From positions 1 to 64,000 of the forward strand of contig CANOCU010000014.1 of NCBI GenBank assembly GCA_947564645.1: a stretch of DNA of 64,000 nucleotides, given 5' to 3'. This DNA comes from an uncultured Lachnospiraceae bacterium (lineage in GTDB: Bacteria; Bacillota; Clostridia; Lachnospirales; Lachnospiraceae). The translations under genes were made by a program, and so were the position numbers. Shown here in pieces: positions 42,645 through 49,845 of the stretch; position 1 is the first letter of the stretch, and the number at the start of each line of letters is the position of its first letter. Under the pieces are notes generated by a model. It made no database searches. It was not told the DNA's origin and saw only the letters and a program-made list of their open reading frames with translations.

Positions 42645-42720
42645 TTAAACACAGAACAGTCTTTTACTCTATGATTTCTCATAAAATGTGAGATGACTCT
42701 ATTACAGGGAGGGCTTGCCA

Positions 42721-43659
42721 TTGCTACATATTACATCACTCAAAGAAGGCCTTGCTATCTTCAAGGCTCTCGGCTCAGATGTCAGGATCGAAATACTCAA
42801 CATTCTGCTGGATAATAATAATATGAGTATGAATGAGCTAGCTTCCAGGCTTAACATCACCAACGGCGCACTGACAAGCCATATCAAGAAATTGGAAAGC
42901 TGCGGCCTGATCACGACCTCCAGCGAATCGGCGGGACACGGCAACCAGAAGATCTGTTCTGTCCATCTGGATAAAATTTTGATCGATCTGGAGAAACAGG
43001 AAGACTTTCAGAACATTTACAGCATAGATCTGAAAGTCGGACATTATTCCAACTACCAGGTCTGTCCAACCTGCGGCCTTGCCTCCGGCAATGCGCTGAT
43101 CGGCGAAGTCGATGACCCTCGTTATTTTGATCATCCGGAACGATATACTGCCGATATTCTCTGGTTTTCCAAGGGGTTTGTGGAATACAACATTCCTAAT
43201 CTCATTCCCGGCTTCCAGAGGATCACCCAGCTTACTCTCTCGGCAGAACTATGTTCTGAAGCTCCCGGCTTTAACAACGTGTGGCCCTCTGATATTTTTT
43301 TCTATATCAATGATGTATTTGTCGGCAGCTGGCTCTCTCCCGGTGACTTCGGTGATTCCCGCGGACTGTTTACACCGGACTGGTGGGTCTCCAACTGGAA
43401 CCAGTACGGTATGCTGAAATTACTGGATATCAACAAGTCAGGCACCTATATCGACGGACTGCAGATCTCCGACGTGACCATTGACAATCTGCATCTGGAT
43501 TACCGCAGCAACATTCGATTCCGCATGGCTGTCGAGGAAGGCGCTGCCCATGTGGGCGGCCTGACCATCTTCGGCAAGACCTTCGGCAATTACAGGCAGG
43601 ACATCAAAGTCAGTCTTCACTATGCACCGATGGAGAACACACAGGTTCCTACTCGTTGA
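42721..43659 (+). CDS. ArsR-type winged-helix regulator with large C-terminal domain
   Basis: A 312-residue protein. The N-terminal 80 residues form a winged helix (IFKALGSDVRIEILNILLD, MSMNELASRLNITNGALTSHIKKLE). The remaining ~230 residues include a CPTCG knuckle and a beta-rich, aromatic-rich part (DIFFYINDVFVGSWLSPGDFG) that looks like a carbohydrate- or small-ligand-binding sandwich and is far larger than in ordinary ArsR sensors. Start taken as TTG 42721, seven bases after AGGGAGGG; the TTG at 42715 is too close. The last 11 bases overlap the end of the convergent alarmone synthetase gene. Confidence 0.78.
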   Translation: MLHITSLKEGLAIFKALGSDVRIEILNILLDNNNMSMNELASRLNITNGALTSHIKKLESCGLITTSSESAGHGNQKICSVHLDKILIDLEKQEDFQNIYSIDLKVGHYSNYQVCPTCGLASGNALIGEVDDPRYFDHPERYTADILWFSKGFVEYNIPNLIPGFQRITQLTLSAELCSEAPGFNNVWPSDIFFYINDVFVGSWLSPGDFGDSRGLFTPDWWVSNWNQYGMLKLLDINKSGTYIDGLQISDVTIDNLHLDYRSNIRFRMAVEEGAAHVGGLTIFGKTFGNYRQDIKVSLHYAPMENTQVPTR

Positions 43660-44437
43660 TCGCGATATCGATCCTGCTCAGCTTCTCTAACAGGATTTCC
43701 TCTTTCGTCGGAATATCCTCGGACATCTCGATCTGTTGGCGCACCTGCCACATTTGTTTGTCCACGGATGCGATCTGCTCCGCGCACTCACTTAACTGCC
43801 GCACGATCTCCTGTTGGTTTGGCACCTCCTGCTTATACTTAAGCTGATGCTCTAAACTCGCCCAGAAATCCATGGCGATCGTTCGAATCTGCACCTCTAC
43901 CGCCATATTCTTCGTTCTGTCCGAGAAAAAGACCGGTACGCTGACGATCATATGATAGCTGCGGTAACCGTTAGGCTTAGGATTCCTGATGTAGTCTTTC
44001 TCCTTGAGCACCGTGATATCATCCTGCTTCGCCAGTGCTTTGGCCAGCATATAAATGTCATCCACATAAGAGCATACCACCCGGATCCCGGCCACATCGA
44101 ACAGGTACTTCTCCACATTCTCCAACGTAAAGCTAAGCTCCTTGCTGTCCAGCTTACGCATAATGCTTGTACTGCTCTTTAAACGGGAATTGATGGAGGT
44201 GATCGGATTACGCTGATAGCGCACATTAAATTCCGAATTCAGAACATCAAATTTCGTGCGCACCTCCTTGATGGCACAACTGTAGCGCATACGCATTTCC
44301 TTATAATCAACTACCGTGTCCACCATCTGCCGCCGTCTCTCATAGATCGACTGATCCACCTGGGGAAATACCATCATCGTCGTATCGTCAGACTCCGTAT
44401 TCATTTCATCTAATGGAAAAAAGGGATTTGCCGTCAT
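43649..44437 (-). CDS. Small alarmone synthetase, (p)ppGpp synthetase domain
   Basis: A 262-residue single-domain RelA/SpoT synthetase without the HD hydrolase or the TGS/ACT parts. Catalytic region: SRLKSSTSIMRKL, VEKYLFDVAGIRVVCSYVDDIY (acidic residues), RNPKPNGYRSYHMIV, VEVQIRTIAMDFWASLEH. A C-terminal coiled helix (about 205-262) suggests oligomerisation. It resembles RelQ/YjbM more than RelP, at low certainty. GGAGG lies 11 bases before the ATG. Its 3' end overlaps the convergent regulator gene by 11 bases. Confidence 0.88.
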   Translation of the reverse strand: MTANPFFPLDEMNTESDDTTMMVFPQVDQSIYERRRQMVDTVVDYKEMRMRYSCAIKEVRTKFDVLNSEFNVRYQRNPITSINSRLKSSTSIMRKLDSKELSFTLENVEKYLFDVAGIRVVCSYVDDIYMLAKALAKQDDITVLKEKDYIRNPKPNGYRSYHMIVSVPVFFSDRTKNMAVEVQIRTIAMDFWASLEHQLKYKQEVPNQQEIVRQLSECAEQIASVDKQMWQVRQQIEMSEDIPTKEEILLEKLSRIDIAINE

Positions 44438-44614: not shown

Positions 44615-45316
44615 TTAAAATTTCTCTTTGCCCAATGTACTGTACTGCCCGTTCTTATCATAGGAATCCAGCAGATAATGATTCTCCGCCTGCATGGACA
44701 GCACTTCCTCTCTGCTGACCAGACGTGTGCCCTGCCGTTTCTTTTGCGGCTGTGCGCTGCGTCCCTGTCTTTGGGGAGACTCTGCCTTCTTGCGCTGTTT
44801 CAGATAAATATCCCGCAATCTGCCGATGATCTCTCGCATCCGGCTCCCGGCTCTGTGCAGCGTCTGTCCCACCGCAAACGAATGTGCAGCGCCCTGCGCT
44901 GCATCCGGAGAGACCGTCCAGGATACAGCAGCCTGTACAACGGCATCCTGCGCTGCAATAGCTGCCGCATCCTGCATTATACCCGTAGCCTGCCGCCCGG
45001 ACTGATGCGTTGAAAGGGTCAGGCCATCCCTGTCATCTGCCGCCTGCTTAAGCCCGTCGTAAGCCATGCCGTCTGATCCCAGGCCGCCGCTTCTCCATCT
45101 GCCGTTCTTTGGACGGTCTGCAAGTCCCAATCCGATCCCTTCCTGCTGCGAGGCTCTCTCACCGGCTGTTCCTGCGCCTTTTGCCTGCTCTCTCAGTTCG
45201 AACCCGTCGCTCACGCTTCTTCTCGTTCCCGGATGCAGATGAGAAGTCGGCCACCTGAGCACATGATAATCTATGAACTGCTCCTTCTGTGTCCATTCCA
45301 AACGGTTCAATGCCAT
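44615..45316 (-). CDS. Hypothetical protein, possibly motility-cluster member
   Basis: A 233-residue, low-complexity, basic protein, rich in Ala, Gly, Gln and Arg. Only the C-terminal part (RDIYLKQRKKAESPQRQGR, then LVSREEVLSMQAENHYLLDS) looks structured. An AAGGAAAC site precedes the ATG by about eight bases and the gene begins 27 bases after the FliD-like gene, so expression seems real. I recognise no domain. Confidence 0.5.
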   Translation of the reverse strand: MALNRLEWTQKEQFIDYHVLRWPTSHLHPGTRRSVSDGFELREQAKGAGTAGERASQQEGIGLGLADRPKNGRWRSGGLGSDGMAYDGLKQAADDRDGLTLSTHQSGRQATGIMQDAAAIAAQDAVVQAAVSWTVSPDAAQGAAHSFAVGQTLHRAGSRMREIIGRLRDIYLKQRKKAESPQRQGRSAQPQKKRQGTRLVSREEVLSMQAENHYLLDSYDKNGQYSTLGKEKF

Positions 45317-45343
45317 CCCATGTTTCCTTCTTTATCACACTTT

Positions 45344-46048
45344 TCAACCAAAAAAGTTAAAATAATTTCCGCTGTTCCCATAATTATTGAACAGCTTGCT
45401 ATAACTGCTGCTTGCCTGGGCCTCCATGCTGCGCTCTGCGGTAGTCTCCACGGAATCCGCCCATAATGTAACCCTGCTCGCAAAGCCGCTTCTGCCGCCC
45501 CACACCTTTTCCAGTGTTGCCAGATCTGCAGCCGCCAGTTTCTCGTCATCTACTACAAGCGTTCCGTCTGTCTTTCTGGTCACGCCGCAGGAAGCAAGCT
45601 CGGAACTGTTCATGCCGGTAATGCTGTTTAACTGCGACAAGTAGTTATTGTCTGTCCTCGTACCGGACTCCTTCAGGTTAGCCAGCATACTGTTATACTG
45701 TCCCACCATCCCCTTGATATTTGCCACGATCTCCGCATTGCTTCCGTTCTCCTTCGCCTTGGCAAAAAGAGATGTCTTGCCCTGATCCGCAAGTCTGCCG
45801 CCATATTCGCAAACCTGCCCTGCATGATACTTCATATTGTAATATAATTTCTGCTTATCAGCAGTTCCCTGTACCGTATTGGAAAAGATATTGTTTTTCC
45901 GCTGCAGTCCGCTAAGCAGCTGAGCGCTCCGGTTCAGTCTCCTGCCCTTGCTGCTCCGGCTTAAGGCGCTCTGTAACAGAGAATAGCTGCCGCCGGTCCT
46001 GTTTCGTCCACTCAAAAGAGCGCTGGAATAATTTCTTGGAATTCTCAT
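45344..46048 (-). CDS. FliD-C-terminus-like protein of unknown function
   Basis: A 234-residue protein starting at ATG 46048 (MRIPRNYSSALLSG) with AGAAGGGAG seven bases upstream. The second half follows the FliD C-terminal pattern: YNSMLANLKESGTRTDNNYL, then a segment in the style of 'gIt-x-DGtL-x-vDe-x-kL' (SCGVTRKTDGTLVVDDEKL), then FASRVTLWADSVETTAERSM. It lacks the length and N-terminal half of a true cap protein (about 450 or more residues). No signal peptide. It may be a truncated or specialised FliD relative. A weak TTCACT-18-TATACT promoter is upstream. Confidence 0.6.
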   Translation of the reverse strand: MRIPRNYSSALLSGRNRTGGSYSLLQSALSRSSKGRRLNRSAQLLSGLQRKNNIFSNTVQGTADKQKLYYNMKYHAGQVCEYGGRLADQGKTSLFAKAKENGSNAEIVANIKGMVGQYNSMLANLKESGTRTDNNYLSQLNSITGMNSSELASCGVTRKTDGTLVVDDEKLAAADLATLEKVWGGRSGFASRVTLWADSVETTAERSMEAQASSSYSKLFNNYGNSGNYFNFFG

Positions 46049-46165
46049 AGGTCGTCTCCCTTCTGTCTGCACATTGTAAAGAACTACCGATCCCTTACAC
46101 TAAGTATATCGTTCACAGTTTTGTAAAGTGAAGACAATTGTAACCAACCATACTGTTTTTCGTCA

Positions 46166-46189
46166 CGAGATTTGCCTGCGGCAAACTCG
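46166..46189. terminator. Hairpin after the GHKL kinase gene
   Basis: Stem CGAG-(A)-TTTGCC / GGCAAACTCG with a three-base loop and one bulge, about 17 bases past the kinase stop. No clean U-run follows on the minus strand, so termination is only possible. Confidence 0.4.
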
Positions 46190-46205
46190 AATAAGTGAAG
46201 TTTTC

Positions 46206-47699
46206 CTAGGATATGGCTGTAGTCCTCCCCTGCAGCATGATCGTCAGTACAAACCTCCCCTCGCCCGCCTCATAATGCAGCGTTCCATAGTATTTTTCCA
46301 CACAGCTGTGCATATTGCTCATGCCAAACCCGTGACGGTCCGTATCCGGCTTGGTGGTCCGCAGGCTGCCCGTCCCCGCAGGAAGATCTTTGCCGGTATA
46401 AGGATTCTCCACCTCGACGAAGTAGATTCTTCCCTTCCCATATCCCCGAAACCGGATCGCCCGCTCTCTTTCTTCCGGCACTTTCCGACAGGCTTCTATG
46501 GCATTGTCAAGCGCATTGTTAAGCAGGATTCCCAGATCAAACGCCTCGATTCCAAGTTCTGTTGGAAAAAGCAGCTCTCCTTCTAACGATATATGCTCCT
46601 GCTCACAGATCTGCCCCTTCCGATTTAAAATAACATCAGTTACCGGATTCCCCGTAACAAACTGCAGCGAAAGTCTGGCCGCCGCCTGCTGCATGTGCTT
46701 AAGATACCCGTCTGCTTCCTGCCTGATCTGATCGGACAACCGGCTCTCCCCGGCGCTGGCGAGAAGCAGCTGTTCCATATCCGCCACATAATTATTGACG
46801 TCATGCCGCATCCTGCGTATCCCGTCATATAGCTGCTCCAGCTCCCGGACATGATCCGTCATATCCGCAAGCTGCTGTTTATAGAACAGCAGGCTGTTTT
46901 CCTGCGCCTCGGCATGTACAAGTTCACTGTAGATCCTGCGGCTGAAAACAATACAGGCCAGGCACAGAAGGGCTACCACCGGCACCACCACATACATACT
47001 GCCATGCTTTTCATACAGAAATTCCACTTCCGCTCCCCGCTGCCTGTAGAAGGAGATCCGCCAGTACACATCAAACGCCATGGTAAGCATCGGCGTTAGC
47101 AGCAAAAACCATAACCCCTGCCTGTTGATCTCCTCCACCGGTCCTGAATCTCTCAGATACCGCCTGTACACTCGAAGCGTCCCGTATGAAAGCGCCAGAT
47201 AACCCGCCGTATAAAGCCACATGCTGTAATCCTGCAGATACACAATAATCGTCATAAATCGCTCCGGATCGATCTTCTCTGCCAGAGCCAGTTCGGTCAG
47301 ATGATCGGTCAGGCCCAACATGGTAAAAGACCAGACGCTGTACAGCGTGATCCTTGCCATCTCCTGCACCGCATAAAAGACAGATAACAGATACAGCTTA
47401 CAGAGCCGTCTCCCCTGATAGAACAGATCCATGGTCAGGAAGCTGCATCCCATAACGATCAGCAGTTTAAATGTACTGTAACCGCTGTCCATGATCATCC
47501 CATCTTCGTTGCCGTAGAGCATACGATTGACCCAGTCTGAATTAGACAGCCAGTATCCGGTCAGAAATGCCTGTAAGAAAAAAAGTATCCTTCCCGCAGA
47601 ACGATACTTCTCTTTCACCATGATACTGTTACCCAAAAAATATAACAGAAGCCCTGCTTTCAATAAACACTCGATCAGACCCGGCAAATCCCAAACCAT
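46206..47699 (-). CDS. AgrC-like sensor histidine kinase (GHKL)
   Basis: A 497-residue membrane kinase. About six hydrophobic segments fill residues 5-240, followed by a coiled linker. The phosphoacceptor region is RMRHDVNNYVADMEQLL, the H-D-x-x-N form typical of AgrC/ComD-type kinases. GHKL ATPase motifs are LGILLNNALDNAIEA (N box) and HGFGMSNMHSCVEKY (G2). Translation starts four bases after the LytTR gene; GAAGGAG covers the overlap. Kinases of this class often sense peptides, but no peptide gene or AgrB processor is nearby. Confidence 0.9.
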   Translation of the reverse strand: MVWDLPGLIECLLKAGLLLYFLGNSIMVKEKYRSAGRILFFLQAFLTGYWLSNSDWVNRMLYGNEDGMIMDSGYSTFKLLIVMGCSFLTMDLFYQGRRLCKLYLLSVFYAVQEMARITLYSVWSFTMLGLTDHLTELALAEKIDPERFMTIIVYLQDYSMWLYTAGYLALSYGTLRVYRRYLRDSGPVEEINRQGLWFLLLTPMLTMAFDVYWRISFYRQRGAEVEFLYEKHGSMYVVVPVVALLCLACIVFSRRIYSELVHAEAQENSLLFYKQQLADMTDHVRELEQLYDGIRRMRHDVNNYVADMEQLLLASAGESRLSDQIRQEADGYLKHMQQAAARLSLQFVTGNPVTDVILNRKGQICEQEHISLEGELLFPTELGIEAFDLGILLNNALDNAIEACRKVPEERERAIRFRGYGKGRIYFVEVENPYTGKDLPAGTGSLRTTKPDTDRHGFGMSNMHSCVEKYYGTLHYEAGEGRFVLTIMLQGRTTAIS

Positions 47700-47703
47700 A
47701 CAG

Positions 47704-48399
47704 TTACTCCTTCAAATACCTGCAGTACAGCTTCACAAACTCGCCATACTTCTGCTTCGCCAGATAGATCCGCTCTCCTGCCCCGACGGTGATGCTCTCA
47801 TGATCATAGCCGGTAATGGCAGACAACGCTACCAGATACCCTCTGTGGCAGCGGTAGAATCCGTCTCCCAACACTTCCTGCAAGTGATTCATCCGTTCAT
47901 AGTATTCCAGACATTCCGTCTTCATATGCAGGATCACCTTCCGCCCGCTGTTCTCCACATACAGGATCTCTTCCACAGGTATTCTGCGATGACTCCCCTC
48001 TGCCTTAACCAGAAGATAGCGTGGTCCGCACTGCCTTTTCTCCACTTCCTGCACGGCACGGTGCAGGACTTCACGCATCTTCTCCTCATCGATCGGTTTC
48101 ATAAGATAATGGAAGGCGCCCACATCGAAAGCATCGAAAACCTGCTCCTTCACTCCTGTTACAAAGATCAGGATCGCTTCCGCAAGCTTTCTTAAACGCC
48201 TTGCCGTCTCCATACCATCCATGCCTTCCATCGCGATATCCAGTAATACGATATCTGGCCGGTAACCTTCTTTTACACTTTCCAGCAATTTCATCCCTGA
48301 ATCAAATTCACATGTCTGTGCCTGAGAAAACTCCTTCTCAAGTAAGGTTCGAATCCTTTCTCTCCCTCTTACCTCGTCATCACAAACTGCAATATTCAT
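47704..48399 (-). CDS. LytTR-family response regulator
   Basis: A 231-residue AgrA-like regulator: receiver domain (MNIAVCDDEVRGRERIR; phosphoacceptor in DIVLLDIAMEGMDG) and a LytTR DNA-binding domain (RYLLVKAEGSHRRIPVEEILYVEN ... FYRCHRGYLVALSAITGYD). Start at ATG 48399, after GAGGGG; an earlier in-frame GTG/ATG would overlap the preceding gene. Directly followed by its kinase. LytTR regulators bind paired 9-bp repeats; none was confirmed here. Confidence 0.92.
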   Translation of the reverse strand: MNIAVCDDEVRGRERIRTLLEKEFSQAQTCEFDSGMKLLESVKEGYRPDIVLLDIAMEGMDGMETARRLRKLAEAILIFVTGVKEQVFDAFDVGAFHYLMKPIDEEKMREVLHRAVQEVEKRQCGPRYLLVKAEGSHRRIPVEEILYVENSGRKVILHMKTECLEYYERMNHLQEVLGDGFYRCHRGYLVALSAITGYDHESITVGAGERIYLAKQKYGEFVKLYCRYLKE

Positions 48400-48437
48400 G
48401 TTTCCCCTCGTAGTCTCAACCAACTGTCTGACACGGA

Positions 48438-49610
48438 TCAACTCTCTTCATCCACCATGGTTCCCTTCAGATCTTCTTCCAAAAGCTTCATCTTATGCAG
48501 CATCTTCTTTACATCCATCTGCACATCGGAAAAGCTGCCAGGCCCTCTGCCGGCTTCCATGATATCATCCAGTAAAACCGCTTCCTCTCTCGAACGCTCC
48601 TCGGCCTCCCGGCGCAGTTCTTCCCGCTCCTCGTTCTTCACATGAGCTTCGTCGATCCGTTCATCCAGCTCTGCCGCGTCTTCCTTTCTATCTTCAATCT
48701 TCTCTTCCTGCTCCGCCTTCTCTTCCGCTTTCTCCTCGGCCTCCTCTTTCTTCTCTTCCATCTCCTCGTCCACGTGGTCTTTGGCCTCTTCCATGAGCAT
48801 ACCGACGATCTCTTTGCCCGCCGCTTTCATCACGTCCTCAGCCTTCTCCTGGGTCTTTTCCATCTCCCGGAATTTCAAACGCTCCAATTTGATGGCGCGG
48901 ATGGAACCGTTATAGGCTGCGATCTGATCCTCAATGACATCGTTCTTCCGCTCATAAAACTCCTGCGATTTATCGATCTCCAGACAGCGCTTCTGATATT
49001 CCGTCAGGGGAACTCCTTCCAGCTCTTTCAACAGTGCTTCTTCTTCCTCAGTCCACTCTACTTCAAGCCCATACTTCTCTGCATCAGCCTTGCGCTGCAA
49101 AAGATCGATCTCCTCCTGCGTGTCGGGCAGACGACCGCTTATCTCCTTAAGCCGCGCCCTCTCTTCCTCTGTCAGGAAGACCTCATCCGGATGCCGCATG
49201 TAATCGGCCTTCTTCTCAAGCAGTTCCAGATCCTTCTGCTCCTGAGAATCCGGTGCAACATGATACTGTTGACGAAGCATCTCCTTCTGGGCTTCCCCCT
49301 CCGCGATCACACCCTGGTTCGCGACATATTCCTCATGCAGCCCGGCCAGCTTCTGCCGGATATCCAATATATTATTATCAATCTTACGATCTCCGTCCCA
49401 GGCATTACTGATCATCTTCAGCGCCTTCTGCTGTGCATACAGCTTACGCTGGGTGACCGGATCTTTCCTGACATTCAGATCCCCCATGAAAATAGCGTTC
49501 CTCTTCTGTTCCCCCTGTCCGTTCCTGCCTGCTCTCTCCTGGGCTCTGTCCCGGGCCGCACTGCTTGCCTGAATTACCTGATTCTCGTTCGCATTCGCTC
49601 TGATCTGCAT
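48438..49610 (-). CDS. Charged coiled-coil protein with internal repeat, sigma-28-type promoter
   Basis: A 390-residue cytosolic protein, start ATG 49610 (MQIRANANENQ) with AAGGAGG nine bases upstream. The N-terminus is glutamine-rich; residues ~121-162 and ~163-203 are a degenerate 41-residue repeat (DSQEQKDLELLEKKAD... and DTQEEIDLLQRKAD..., each ending with acidic E-rich then L-K-E). Residues ~290-350 are a pure Glu/Lys coiled coil. No domain recognised. It heads a transcript with the LytTR regulator (38 bases on) and kinase, under a motility-type promoter. The probable role is a scaffold or adaptor linked to flagella, as inference only. Confidence 0.7.
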   Translation of the reverse strand: MQIRANANENQVIQASSAARDRAQERAGRNGQGEQKRNAIFMGDLNVRKDPVTQRKLYAQQKALKMISNAWDGDRKIDNNILDIRQKLAGLHEEYVANQGVIAEGEAQKEMLRQQYHVAPDSQEQKDLELLEKKADYMRHPDEVFLTEEERARLKEISGRLPDTQEEIDLLQRKADAEKYGLEVEWTEEEEALLKELEGVPLTEYQKRCLEIDKSQEFYERKNDVIEDQIAAYNGSIRAIKLERLKFREMEKTQEKAEDVMKAAGKEIVGMLMEEAKDHVDEEMEEKKEEAEEKAEEKAEQEEKIEDRKEDAAELDERIDEAHVKNEEREELRREAEERSREEAVLLDDIMEAGRGPGSFSDVQMDVKKMLHKMKLLEEDLKGTMVDEES

Positions 49611-49746
49611 GAATTGTAACCTCCTTGTTCCCCATGACTGCCATTTCCGGACAAAGTCCTTTTCGTCCGGCAAGTTTGCTATTCAGCTGTGTAAGCCCGT
49701 ATAAAGCTGTACCTGAACACTATCGTTCACTATAGATATAATAATA

Positions 49747-49774
49747 TTATCGGCATATTGTTATCATTTCTTTA
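49747..49774 (-). promoter_or_regulatory. Sigma-28/sigma-D (FliA-type) promoter
   Basis: Minus strand TAAA (49771-49774), 16 bases, GCCGATAA (49747-49754): a full match to the motility sigma consensus TAAA-N15/16-GCCGATAA/T. It lies about 137 bases before the coiled-coil gene. The leader downstream can form CCGGAC / GTCCGG about 60 bases before the start codon. The gap 49611-49925 holds this promoter, its leader and the terminator of the next gene. Confidence 0.75.
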
Positions 49775-49845
49775 TCACGTTCTTACCTGTTCATGACAGG
49801 AAACCTCCCGCTCATGACATTACATTTCCAGGTACTGTACAATCA

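Follow-up and report, generated by a model that had tools for sequence, protein, structure and literature searches.

In Bacillus subtilis, the leader of the flagellin mRNA hag contains two CsrA sites, one of them at the ribosome-binding site (PMC7652899), and the flagellar co-expressed determinants (Fed proteins) of Campylobacter jejuni are described as non-flagellar proteins expected to depend on sigma-28 (PMC5223770). Two-component systems such as AgrAC, BtsSR and LytSR combine LytTR and GHKL domains and use direct-repeat sites ~21 bp apart. Here we describe a locus that resembles each of these systems in part, located in a 64,000-nt stretch of DNA (the window) from an uncultured Lachnospiraceae bacterium with a 4.15-Mb genome. 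With a probability of about 0.68, we read it as an operon of late flagellar timing. Three controls, sigma-28, a LytTR regulator and CsrA, would act on its first gene, and its products are probably cargo or accessories of flagellar export.

The row, entirely on the (-) strand, begins with the gene for a coiled-coil (CC) protein (48438..49610; 390 aa), followed by those for a LytTR response regulator (RR; 47704..48399; 231 aa), a GHKL sensor kinase (HK; 46206..47699; 497 aa), a protein whose resemblance to FliD, the flagellar cap protein, is confined to the C-terminal part of the latter (FliD_C-like; 45344..46048; 234 aa) and a last protein with no assigned function (44615..45316; 233 aa). This is the order given in the original prediction, with the same intergenic spacings of 38 and 4 bases. 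Profile searches with all five proteins recognized the Pfam domains Response_reg and LytTR in the RR and HATPase_c_5 (GHKL) in the HK, gave a weak FliD_C match, and returned no Pfam family for the 233-aa protein and no Pfam or NCBIfam family for CC. Hydrophobic segments are absent from the CC, FliD_C-like and 233-aa proteins. The last of these lacks cysteine, and its C-terminal motif NHYLLDSYD did not vary among the 12 members aligned. The CC family has a common cysteine, a residue typically missing from flagellins and a point against the reading that we favor. The conserved neighbor beyond the row, encoding a YjbM-like small (p)ppGpp synthetase (43649..44437, (-) strand; 172 bits, model cut-off 320), probably lies outside the CC unit.

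In the FliD_C-like protein, the Pfam match spans 59 residues (146-204 of 234; E 3.2e-05) and scores 23.9 bits, below the cut-off of 25.4; no FliD N-terminal family was matched by Pfam. A full FliD (HAP2) identity was rejected on both counts, and the protein is far shorter than the 767-aa FliD of the same genome, yet it shares with FliD a YN motif and a GVT..DGTL.VDE.KL stretch. A profile of its family matched the FliD structure 5fhy (E 5e-06). When the family profile was compared directly with that of FliD from the same order, 25 columns aligned (probability 42%, E 2.6e-4), so the kinship rests on the Pfam and PDB profile searches. As predicted, no flagellar gene family and no AgrB were found among the 38 main ORFs of the window scanned with Pfam (8, then 30 at E 1e-05 or better; some eight other main ORFs and the short ones lie outside this set). 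The exceptions are the weak match to FliD_C and one to FlgK_D1 that stays below threshold (E 0.16).

The original prediction had called the RR-HK pair AgrAC-like, which holds for its LytTR/GHKL domain architecture and not for an Agr system. Peptide quorum sensing of the Agr type, with the peptide genes located away from the pair, would fit that architecture; we regard it as very improbable, given that AgrB is missing from the 38 scanned ORFs and that the RR reaches 38 bits on the AgrA equivalog model, whose cut-off is 400. The RR likewise falls short of BtsR (79.5 of 246 bits) and LytR (42.3 of 375), and the pair differs from AgrAC, BtsSR and LytSR in that its apparent target promoters are of the sigma-28 type. 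The presence of the kinase suggests a sensing role.

The sigma-28 promoter of CC (49747..49774, (-) strand) consists of a -35 element, TAAAG (49774-49770), and a -10 element, GCCGATAA (49754-49747), and includes the TAAA-N16-GCCGATAA match originally reported. With spacers of N14-18, TAAA/GCCGATAA occurs once in the window (0.07 expected; at least one match in 7 of 100 shuffles), and this loose pattern matched the whole genome four times, as often as its reversed control. The match by itself proves nothing, and we judge the promoter real because it is conserved upstream of CC genes across Lachnospiraceae. Sigma-28 scores of 12 or 13 out of 13 were obtained for 36 of 61 distinct CC upstream regions, compared with 3/549 other ORFs and 4/1220 Markov shuffles, and 10 of the 61 scored below 11; related CC upstream sequences are not independent of one another. 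Left out of this count and of the hairpin count below were L038, whose upstream region was of insufficient length, and the duplicates L087, L090 and L108. A refined consensus, TWAAG-N16-CCGATAW, matched the own genome eight times and its reversed control not once. Besides the window site, the matches comprise two in front of flagellins, two intergenic ones ahead of other ORFs (C3, C87) and three within ORFs (C1, C36, C67), the last three probably due to chance. As its -35 was widened to TWAAG after relatives had been viewed, this consensus is partly fitted to them; it was assessed by comparison with other ORFs, with shuffles and with flagellin promoters. Some promoters contain CGATATAAT, a possible sigma-A element. 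The CC promoter matches those of two flagellin genes in the own genome, which also encodes FliA (262.1 bits, curated cut-off 189.6), and together these features support assignment of CC to the sigma-28 (FliA/SigD) regulon.

Two further signals, a LytTR-type direct repeat and a CsrA-type leader, were absent from the original prediction. The repeat, TGTCATGA-N13-TGTCATGA (49791..49819, (-) strand), lies upstream of the -35, its half-sites being 21 bp apart, a spacing described for LytTR sites (PMC11347149); in the window, 15 nt separate the -35 from the end of the second half-site, which is 9 bases long. Self-similarity at offset 21 reached 6.44 in a group of 16 CC loci and 6.70 in another of 10, values that none of 1000 shuffles attained in either group. 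In 25 other loci the signal was weak (5.44), and 14 of 1000 shuffles attained it. The box is recognizable at 23 of 26 operon-type loci (exceptions: L037, L039 and L093), and the distance from its second half-site to the -35 is 15-16 nt in 20 of these and 26-27 nt in three, i.e. the classes differ by about one helical turn. Within the genus (37 genomes), box matches numbered 136 vs. 23, a figure that overstates true sites, many matches resembling coding repeats with identical letters in several genomes; in 24 other genomes they numbered 22 vs. 13. The exact combined geometry from box to -10 was matched 35 times in 61 genomes (seven being CC promoters) compared with 14 in the control, which indicates no large regulon of that form.

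Similar repeats occur elsewhere in the operon. Offset 21 scores highest in the gaps between CC and RR (6.36), closely followed by offset 30 (6.27), and relatives in which this gap exceeds 90 nt carry a LytTR-like repeat before RR; the 38-bp gap of the window contains none. At least 15 LytTR regulator genes, among the matches listed and compared by eye, are preceded at 71-125 nt by a box that deviates in one position or none, and the repeat also precedes genes for LytTR paralogues. Between HK and the FliD_C-like gene, a second LytTR-like repeat, GTGACGAA...GTTACAA (46138..46166, (-) strand; 22 bp apart, 21 bp in several relatives), is followed by a sigma-28-like -10, ACGATATA (46105..46112, (-) strand), which overlaps a possible sigma-A -10 (TATACT); CGATA is present in 16/16 such regions between HK and FliD_C-like genes. 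The CC promoter accordingly has the appearance of a LytTR-regulated one, with direct half-sites ~21 bp apart beside it and, in relatives, the same arrangement at the regulator's presumptive own promoter. A different flagellar activator might bind the repeat instead, as the box is kept in three genomes (G018, G022, G034) whose best matches to the window regulator are at most 49% identical, where either a paralogue or another binder may serve it. We consider a non-LytTR binder doubtful, since the half-site spacing is that described for LytTR sites (PMC11347149), LytTR genes, including those of paralogues, have this repeat in front of them, and LytTR paralogues exist in the genomes that have the box and no close orthologue.

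Among the genomes searched, 31 were CC-positive. All 31 encode flagellin, as do 27/27 further ones (58/58 checked); outside the genus, CC was found in one of 24 genomes, 21 of which have flagellin. Since all 37 genomes of the genus carry flagellin, including the seven (several incomplete) without a CC match, co-occurrence of CC and flagella is uninformative inside the genus. Together with the conserved sigma-28 promoter and the CsrA-type leader, the presence of flagellin in every CC-positive genome checked strengthens the predicted coupling to motility. A lack of any conserved gene order or promoter in relatives, which would have spoken against the prediction, was not observed. The full order CC-RR-HK-FliD_C occurs in 15 of the 31 genomes; one has RR and lacks HK, seven have CC-FliD_C-unknown with neither RR nor HK in between, and eight CC loci have no partner within the stretch examined. 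An RR-HK-FliD_C group is located elsewhere in four of these eight genomes (G036, G006, G004, G035), and in G017 it is present where CC was not found. The proposal that CC, LytTR and GHKL form one module is thus correct only in part: 15 rows are complete, and in other genomes the pair is missing between CC and FliD_C (7/31) or displaced. Relative to CC, the pair is optional and movable.

This mobility raises the possibility that RR and HK are unrelated passengers, inserted into a sigma-28/CsrA-controlled operon of CC, FliD_C-like and unknown genes with no functional link to it. The seven pair-free rows and the five genomes with a pair elsewhere (G036, G006, G017, G004, G035) speak for such an insertion. 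We find it unlikely: the displaced pair retains a downstream FliD_C-like gene in all five loci (two genes intervene in G036, and about 1.4 kb separates RR from HK in G006 and G035), as does a divergent pair in G018, and LytTR-like boxes are found at CC, RR and FliD_C promoters alike.

The CC leader contains a hairpin, CCGGACGAA AAGGAC TTTGTCCGG (49646..49671, (-) strand), with an ANGGAN-type loop, which we regard as candidate CsrA site 1; the ribosome-binding site, ACAAGGAGG (49620..49628, (-) strand), also reads as an ANGGA motif and, by match to the CsrA consensus (PMC7652899), is candidate site 2. Folded as a whole, the window leader is not unusually stable (z -0.79), and the local hairpin is its sole conserved structure. 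In an unselected count, at least seven of eight pairs around an NGGA loop were present in 28/61 CC upstream regions, vs. 10/554 other ORFs and 25/1220 shuffles; 26 of the 61 lack even six pairs, which 40/554 other ORFs possess. An A precedes the loop N in 27 of the 28 well-paired CC leaders, compared with 3/10 other ORFs and 8/25 shuffles. Covariation analysis of 29 leaders (from 35 with at least six pairs; L056, L060, L089, L093, L094 and L109 were left out) yielded 54 double changes vs. 16 when shuffled; these leaders were preselected for NGGA pairing, so that their 91.8% pairing and invariant GGA arise partly by construction. For this reason the unselected count was added, and it supports the same reading without altering its probability.

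Rather than a CsrA site, the hairpin could be a general mRNA stabilizer or attenuator. Its stem is long (8-10 bp), whereas CsrA ligands selected in vitro mostly have four or fewer contiguous pairs (PMC7652899), and the two flagellin leaders of this genome carry GGA hairpins of just 4-5 bp. Yet the A before NGGA is retained (27/28 vs. 3/10 controls) while stem letters vary, and the ribosome-binding site offers another ANGGA, which makes a purely structural role rather improbable in our view. We favor a CsrA-type leader as in flagellin, given the conserved ANGGAN hairpin and the candidate site overlapping the ribosome-binding site. csrA occurs in 36/37 genomes of the genus, the own included, where it is adjoined by an ORF that we call FliW-like from its sequence. 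With two candidate CsrA sites, csrA and a FliW-like ORF, the arrangement resembles the CsrA-FliW-flagellin switch of hag; it differs in that CC is not a flagellin and in the LytTR-type box at its promoter.

In the late-flagellar operon that we propose, sigma-28 (FliA) would transcribe the CC operon, placing expression after hook completion, and RR and HK would be co-transcribed with CC in the window. A LytTR regulator, most simply the operon-encoded one, would bind the repeat upstream of the -35 and modulate the CC promoter. It would likely also drive the promoter of the FliD_C-like gene and, in relatives, its own, both of which carry a similar repeat and a CGATA -10. CsrA would block CC translation via the GGA-loop hairpin and the ribosome-binding site until FliW frees the bound leader during flagellin export, as for flagellin in B. 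subtilis. CC, the FliD_C-like protein and the third protein would probably serve flagellar export at a late stage, as its cargo or its accessories; their lack of hydrophobic segments is compatible with perhaps being exported. Production of CC-group proteins may be limited to the time at which flagella reach completion, and may further require some signal. In this they recall the non-flagellar Fed proteins under sigma-28-type control, by analogy of expected regulation.

FlxA-like and DUF6033 proteins are encoded directly downstream of other LytTR/GHKL pairs in the genus; the window proteins match neither Pfam model. In E. coli, FlxA is FliA-dependent. A speculative extension, to which we give little credence, is that LytTR/GHKL systems of this Lachnospiraceae group belong to the sigma-28 regulon as a whole class, acting at CGATA -10 promoters that often have no clear -35, each controlling its own export cargo (FliD_C-like, DUF6033, FlxA-like or coiled-coil), with the kinase sensing either the FliD_C-like protein once exported or the filament as it grows, and with CsrA-FliW as translational lock. 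Were this so, a cell could verify that the flagellar export channel is open before making more cargo.

For the operon itself, a putative signal-responsive activator site at fixed helical phase by a sigma-28 promoter, combined with a CsrA-type leader, would place a gene of late flagellar timing under three controls at once, a gate that can be tested. An unnamed CC family from gut commensals thereby gains a concrete context, late flagellar timing, and the locus suggests that, in common Lachnospiraceae of the gut, flagellin may not be all that flagella carry or export.

Re-reading of the sequence confirmed the σ28 motif, gene order and spacings that the original prediction had claimed for the minus-strand operon led by a gene for a 390-aa coiled-coil protein (CC; 49610–48438), whose promoter element (49774–49747) joins a TAAA-type –35 to a CGATA-type –10. 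A loose σ28 pattern matched the 4.15-Mb own genome four times, as did its reversed control; the window match alone is thus weak evidence, and the case therefore depends on relatives. After removal of one region that was too short and three duplicates, 61 distinct CC upstream regions were scored: 20 reached 13/13, 36 at least 12 and 51 at least 11. In the same loci, three of 549 other ORFs reached 12 and 17 reached 11; of 1220 Markov shuffles, four reached 12 and none 13. With the –35 written as TWAAG, the form seen in relatives, the own genome held eight matches vs. none for the reversed pattern: two before flagellin genes, the CC promoter, two upstream of other ORFs and three within ORFs. The CC element is of the same type as the C. 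difficile SigD consensus, in which TAAA and CG are spaced 15–18 bases (available part of PMC3865298). Promoter elements at the CC locus also agree with the Butyrivibrio –10 (MCGATAa) employed in a study, available in part, that inferred σ28 promoters for Roseburia and Eubacterium flagellins (PMC3720852).

A search with the CC protein returned relatives in 31 of 61 genomes, namely 30 of 37 in the genus, counting the own genome, and one of the 24 that belong to the order's other families. When named genomes were scanned, at least 31 CC loci came up (three being duplicates of loci already in the set), under titles including Lachnospiraceae, Roseburia, Butyrivibrio, Acetatifactor, plain ‘bacterium’ and ‘Clostridia bacterium’. 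Flagellin was present in all 31 CC-positive genomes of the 61-genome search and in 27/27 further ones, a set that leaves out the genome of locus L094; seven flagellin-bearing genomes of the genus gave no CC match in the protein search. The own genome also encodes a FliA scoring over its cut-off and, outside the operon, a full-length FliD (767 aa).

In the window, CC is followed by a LytTR response regulator (RR; 48399–47704), a GHKL kinase (HK; 47699–46206), a protein resembling the C-terminal domain family of the flagellar cap protein FliD (FliD_C-like; 46048–45344) and a third protein (45316–44615). The order CC-RR-HK-FliD_C recurred in 15 of the 31 CC-positive genomes; one had RR without HK at the CC locus, seven had CC, FliD_C and the third gene without RR or HK, and eight had CC without any operon partner in the stretch examined, which in some ends at a contig edge. 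Elsewhere in G036, G006, G017, G004 and G035, an RR 59–61% identical to that of the window has HK and a FliD_C-like gene downstream; two genes separate the latter two in G036, and about 1.4 kb separates RR from HK in G006 and G035. The search found no CC in G017. A divergent LytTR/GHKL pair precedes a FliD_C-like gene in G018, pairs precede DUF6033 proteins in G002, G033 and G025, and a pair of the own genome (G000:C99; L167:2824-5974) precedes a FlxA-like protein (PF14282, 54.5 bits, cut-off 26.3); such pairs and small proteins of these kinds therefore recur together. In loci L157, L158 and L159, DUF6033 and further small proteins come after such pairs, several in a row in the last two. Downstream of the operon, a YjbM-like small (p)ppGpp synthetase (43649–44437, minus strand) is a neighbour kept in many relatives; a winged-helix regulator (42715–43659, plus strand), is convergent with the operon and nearby in several relatives, and its long C-terminal part matches nothing in Pfam.

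Upstream of the CC –35 lies a LytTR-type direct repeat (49819–49791, minus strand; TGTCATGA-N13-TGTCATGA). LytTR sites are described as direct repeats spaced about two helical turns in the available part of PMC11347149. When offsets 12–33 were compared over 70 nt ahead of the –35, self-similarity at offset 21 was outstanding (6.44 in 16 loci with RR in the operon, 6.70 in ten without); 1000 rounds of shuffling averaged 4.8 and peaked at 5.75 and 5.80, respectively. In 25 other loci the signal was weak (5.44; 14/1000 shuffles as high). Using a consensus derived from the same sequences, with position unconstrained, the box was recognisable (≥13/18) in 23 of 26 operon-type loci. Its second half-site ended 15–16 nt from the –35 in 20 loci and 26–27 nt in three, the two classes differing by about one helical turn. 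Among the open-access papers listed in literature searches, we found no account of the CC locus or of LytTR sites at σ28 promoters.

Allowing two mismatches, the box pattern matched the own genome 11 times vs. three for the control; two matches were perfect: that at the CC promoter of the window and one that lies ahead of a different LytTR operon, on contig C30. With at most one mismatch, the genus (37 genomes) gave 136 matches where the reversed control gave 23, and the 24 other genomes gave 22 where it gave 13; some of these matches are coding repeats. Among the matches listed, paired with LytTR regulator genes by eye, boxes lie 71–125 nt upstream of such genes in G006, G004, G035, G008 (two), G002, G026, G009, G031 and G000:C30; others among those listed lie between CC and RR (G032, G020, G005, G014, G026). 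The C30 operon (G000:C30:1817-4674; L163), a second LytTR/GHKL operon, has the perfect box upstream and a GGCCGATATAG element; the gene of a small unknown protein follows it. LytTR-like boxes, each with a CGATATA element after it, also stand at G000:C32:9845-9873 (L164), before a small unknown protein of 206 aa (start MSVNGVTSG), and at G000:C119:889-917 (L165), before one of about 203 aa (start MNIGMHGFG).

Where the CC–RR gap of relatives exceeds 90 nt, TGCCGATA follows a GTGACA-type repeat in 11/12; offset 21 ranked top in these gaps at 6.36, yet offset 30 was near (6.27). HK-to-FliD_C-like intergenic regions contained CGATA in 16/16, with offset 21 top at 5.44. Of 16 further LytTR genes picked as matches to the window RR, 14 had CGATA no more than 150 nt upstream of the ORF or inside its first 60 nt (absent: L150, L167) vs. 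96/554 control ORFs. σ28 may also act at CGATA elements of RR, FliD_C and LytTR genes, less certainly than at the CC promoter because some can be read as a σA –10 (TATAAT) too.

Between the CC promoter and start codon, the leader forms a hairpin with GGA in the loop; the ribosome-binding site reads ACAAGGAGG. At least seven of eight pairs around an NGGA loop were found in 28 of the 61 unselected CC upstream regions (15/17 in loci with RR in the operon), vs. 10/554 other ORFs and 25/1220 shuffles. The base before N was A in 27/28 of these leaders vs. 3/10 and 8/25, giving the same A-N-G-G-A-N loop as in CsrA/Rsm targets (available part of PMC7652899). In a subset of 29 leaders, selected because they pair, standard pairs filled 91.8% of pair cells (shuffled, 67.5%) and 54 cells were altered on both sides (shuffled, 16), figures inflated by that choice; sliding the partner by 1–3 columns left at most 47.4% pairing. 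The own genome has one CsrA match, and its gene is adjoined by a FliW-like ORF (named from its sequence). At G000:C87:7821-7848 (L086, L124), a σ28-like promoter and a long AGGA-loop hairpin precede the gene of an unknown protein (VRIDSSVMGMQSSRRYAS) of about 356 aa; this gene, too, may be under σ28 and CsrA.

The window CC had no Pfam match and 30 members gave just scattered weak ones; NCBIfam gave no match, and a PDB profile search none that was convincing. The family consensus carries a C-terminal MKLLEEDIKGxxVD. The FliD_C-like protein matched FliD 5fhy in the PDB profile search (5e-06); hhalign aligned it with the local FliD only at a YN motif. In the third protein, NHYLLDSYD is invariant across 12 members. 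No hydrophobic segments were found in these three sequences; HK has at least two.

The simplest reading of these sequence features is that the CC locus would combine late-flagellar timing, signal input and translational release: σ28 would set the timing of the operon, the LytTR regulator would bring in the signal, and a CsrA lock on CC translation would be released once FliW is freed. From this timing and the absence of other signals, we infer that CC, the FliD_C-like protein and the third protein may leave via the flagellar export system, for which the Campylobacter Fed proteins, as presented in the available part of PMC5223770, serve as a working analogy.
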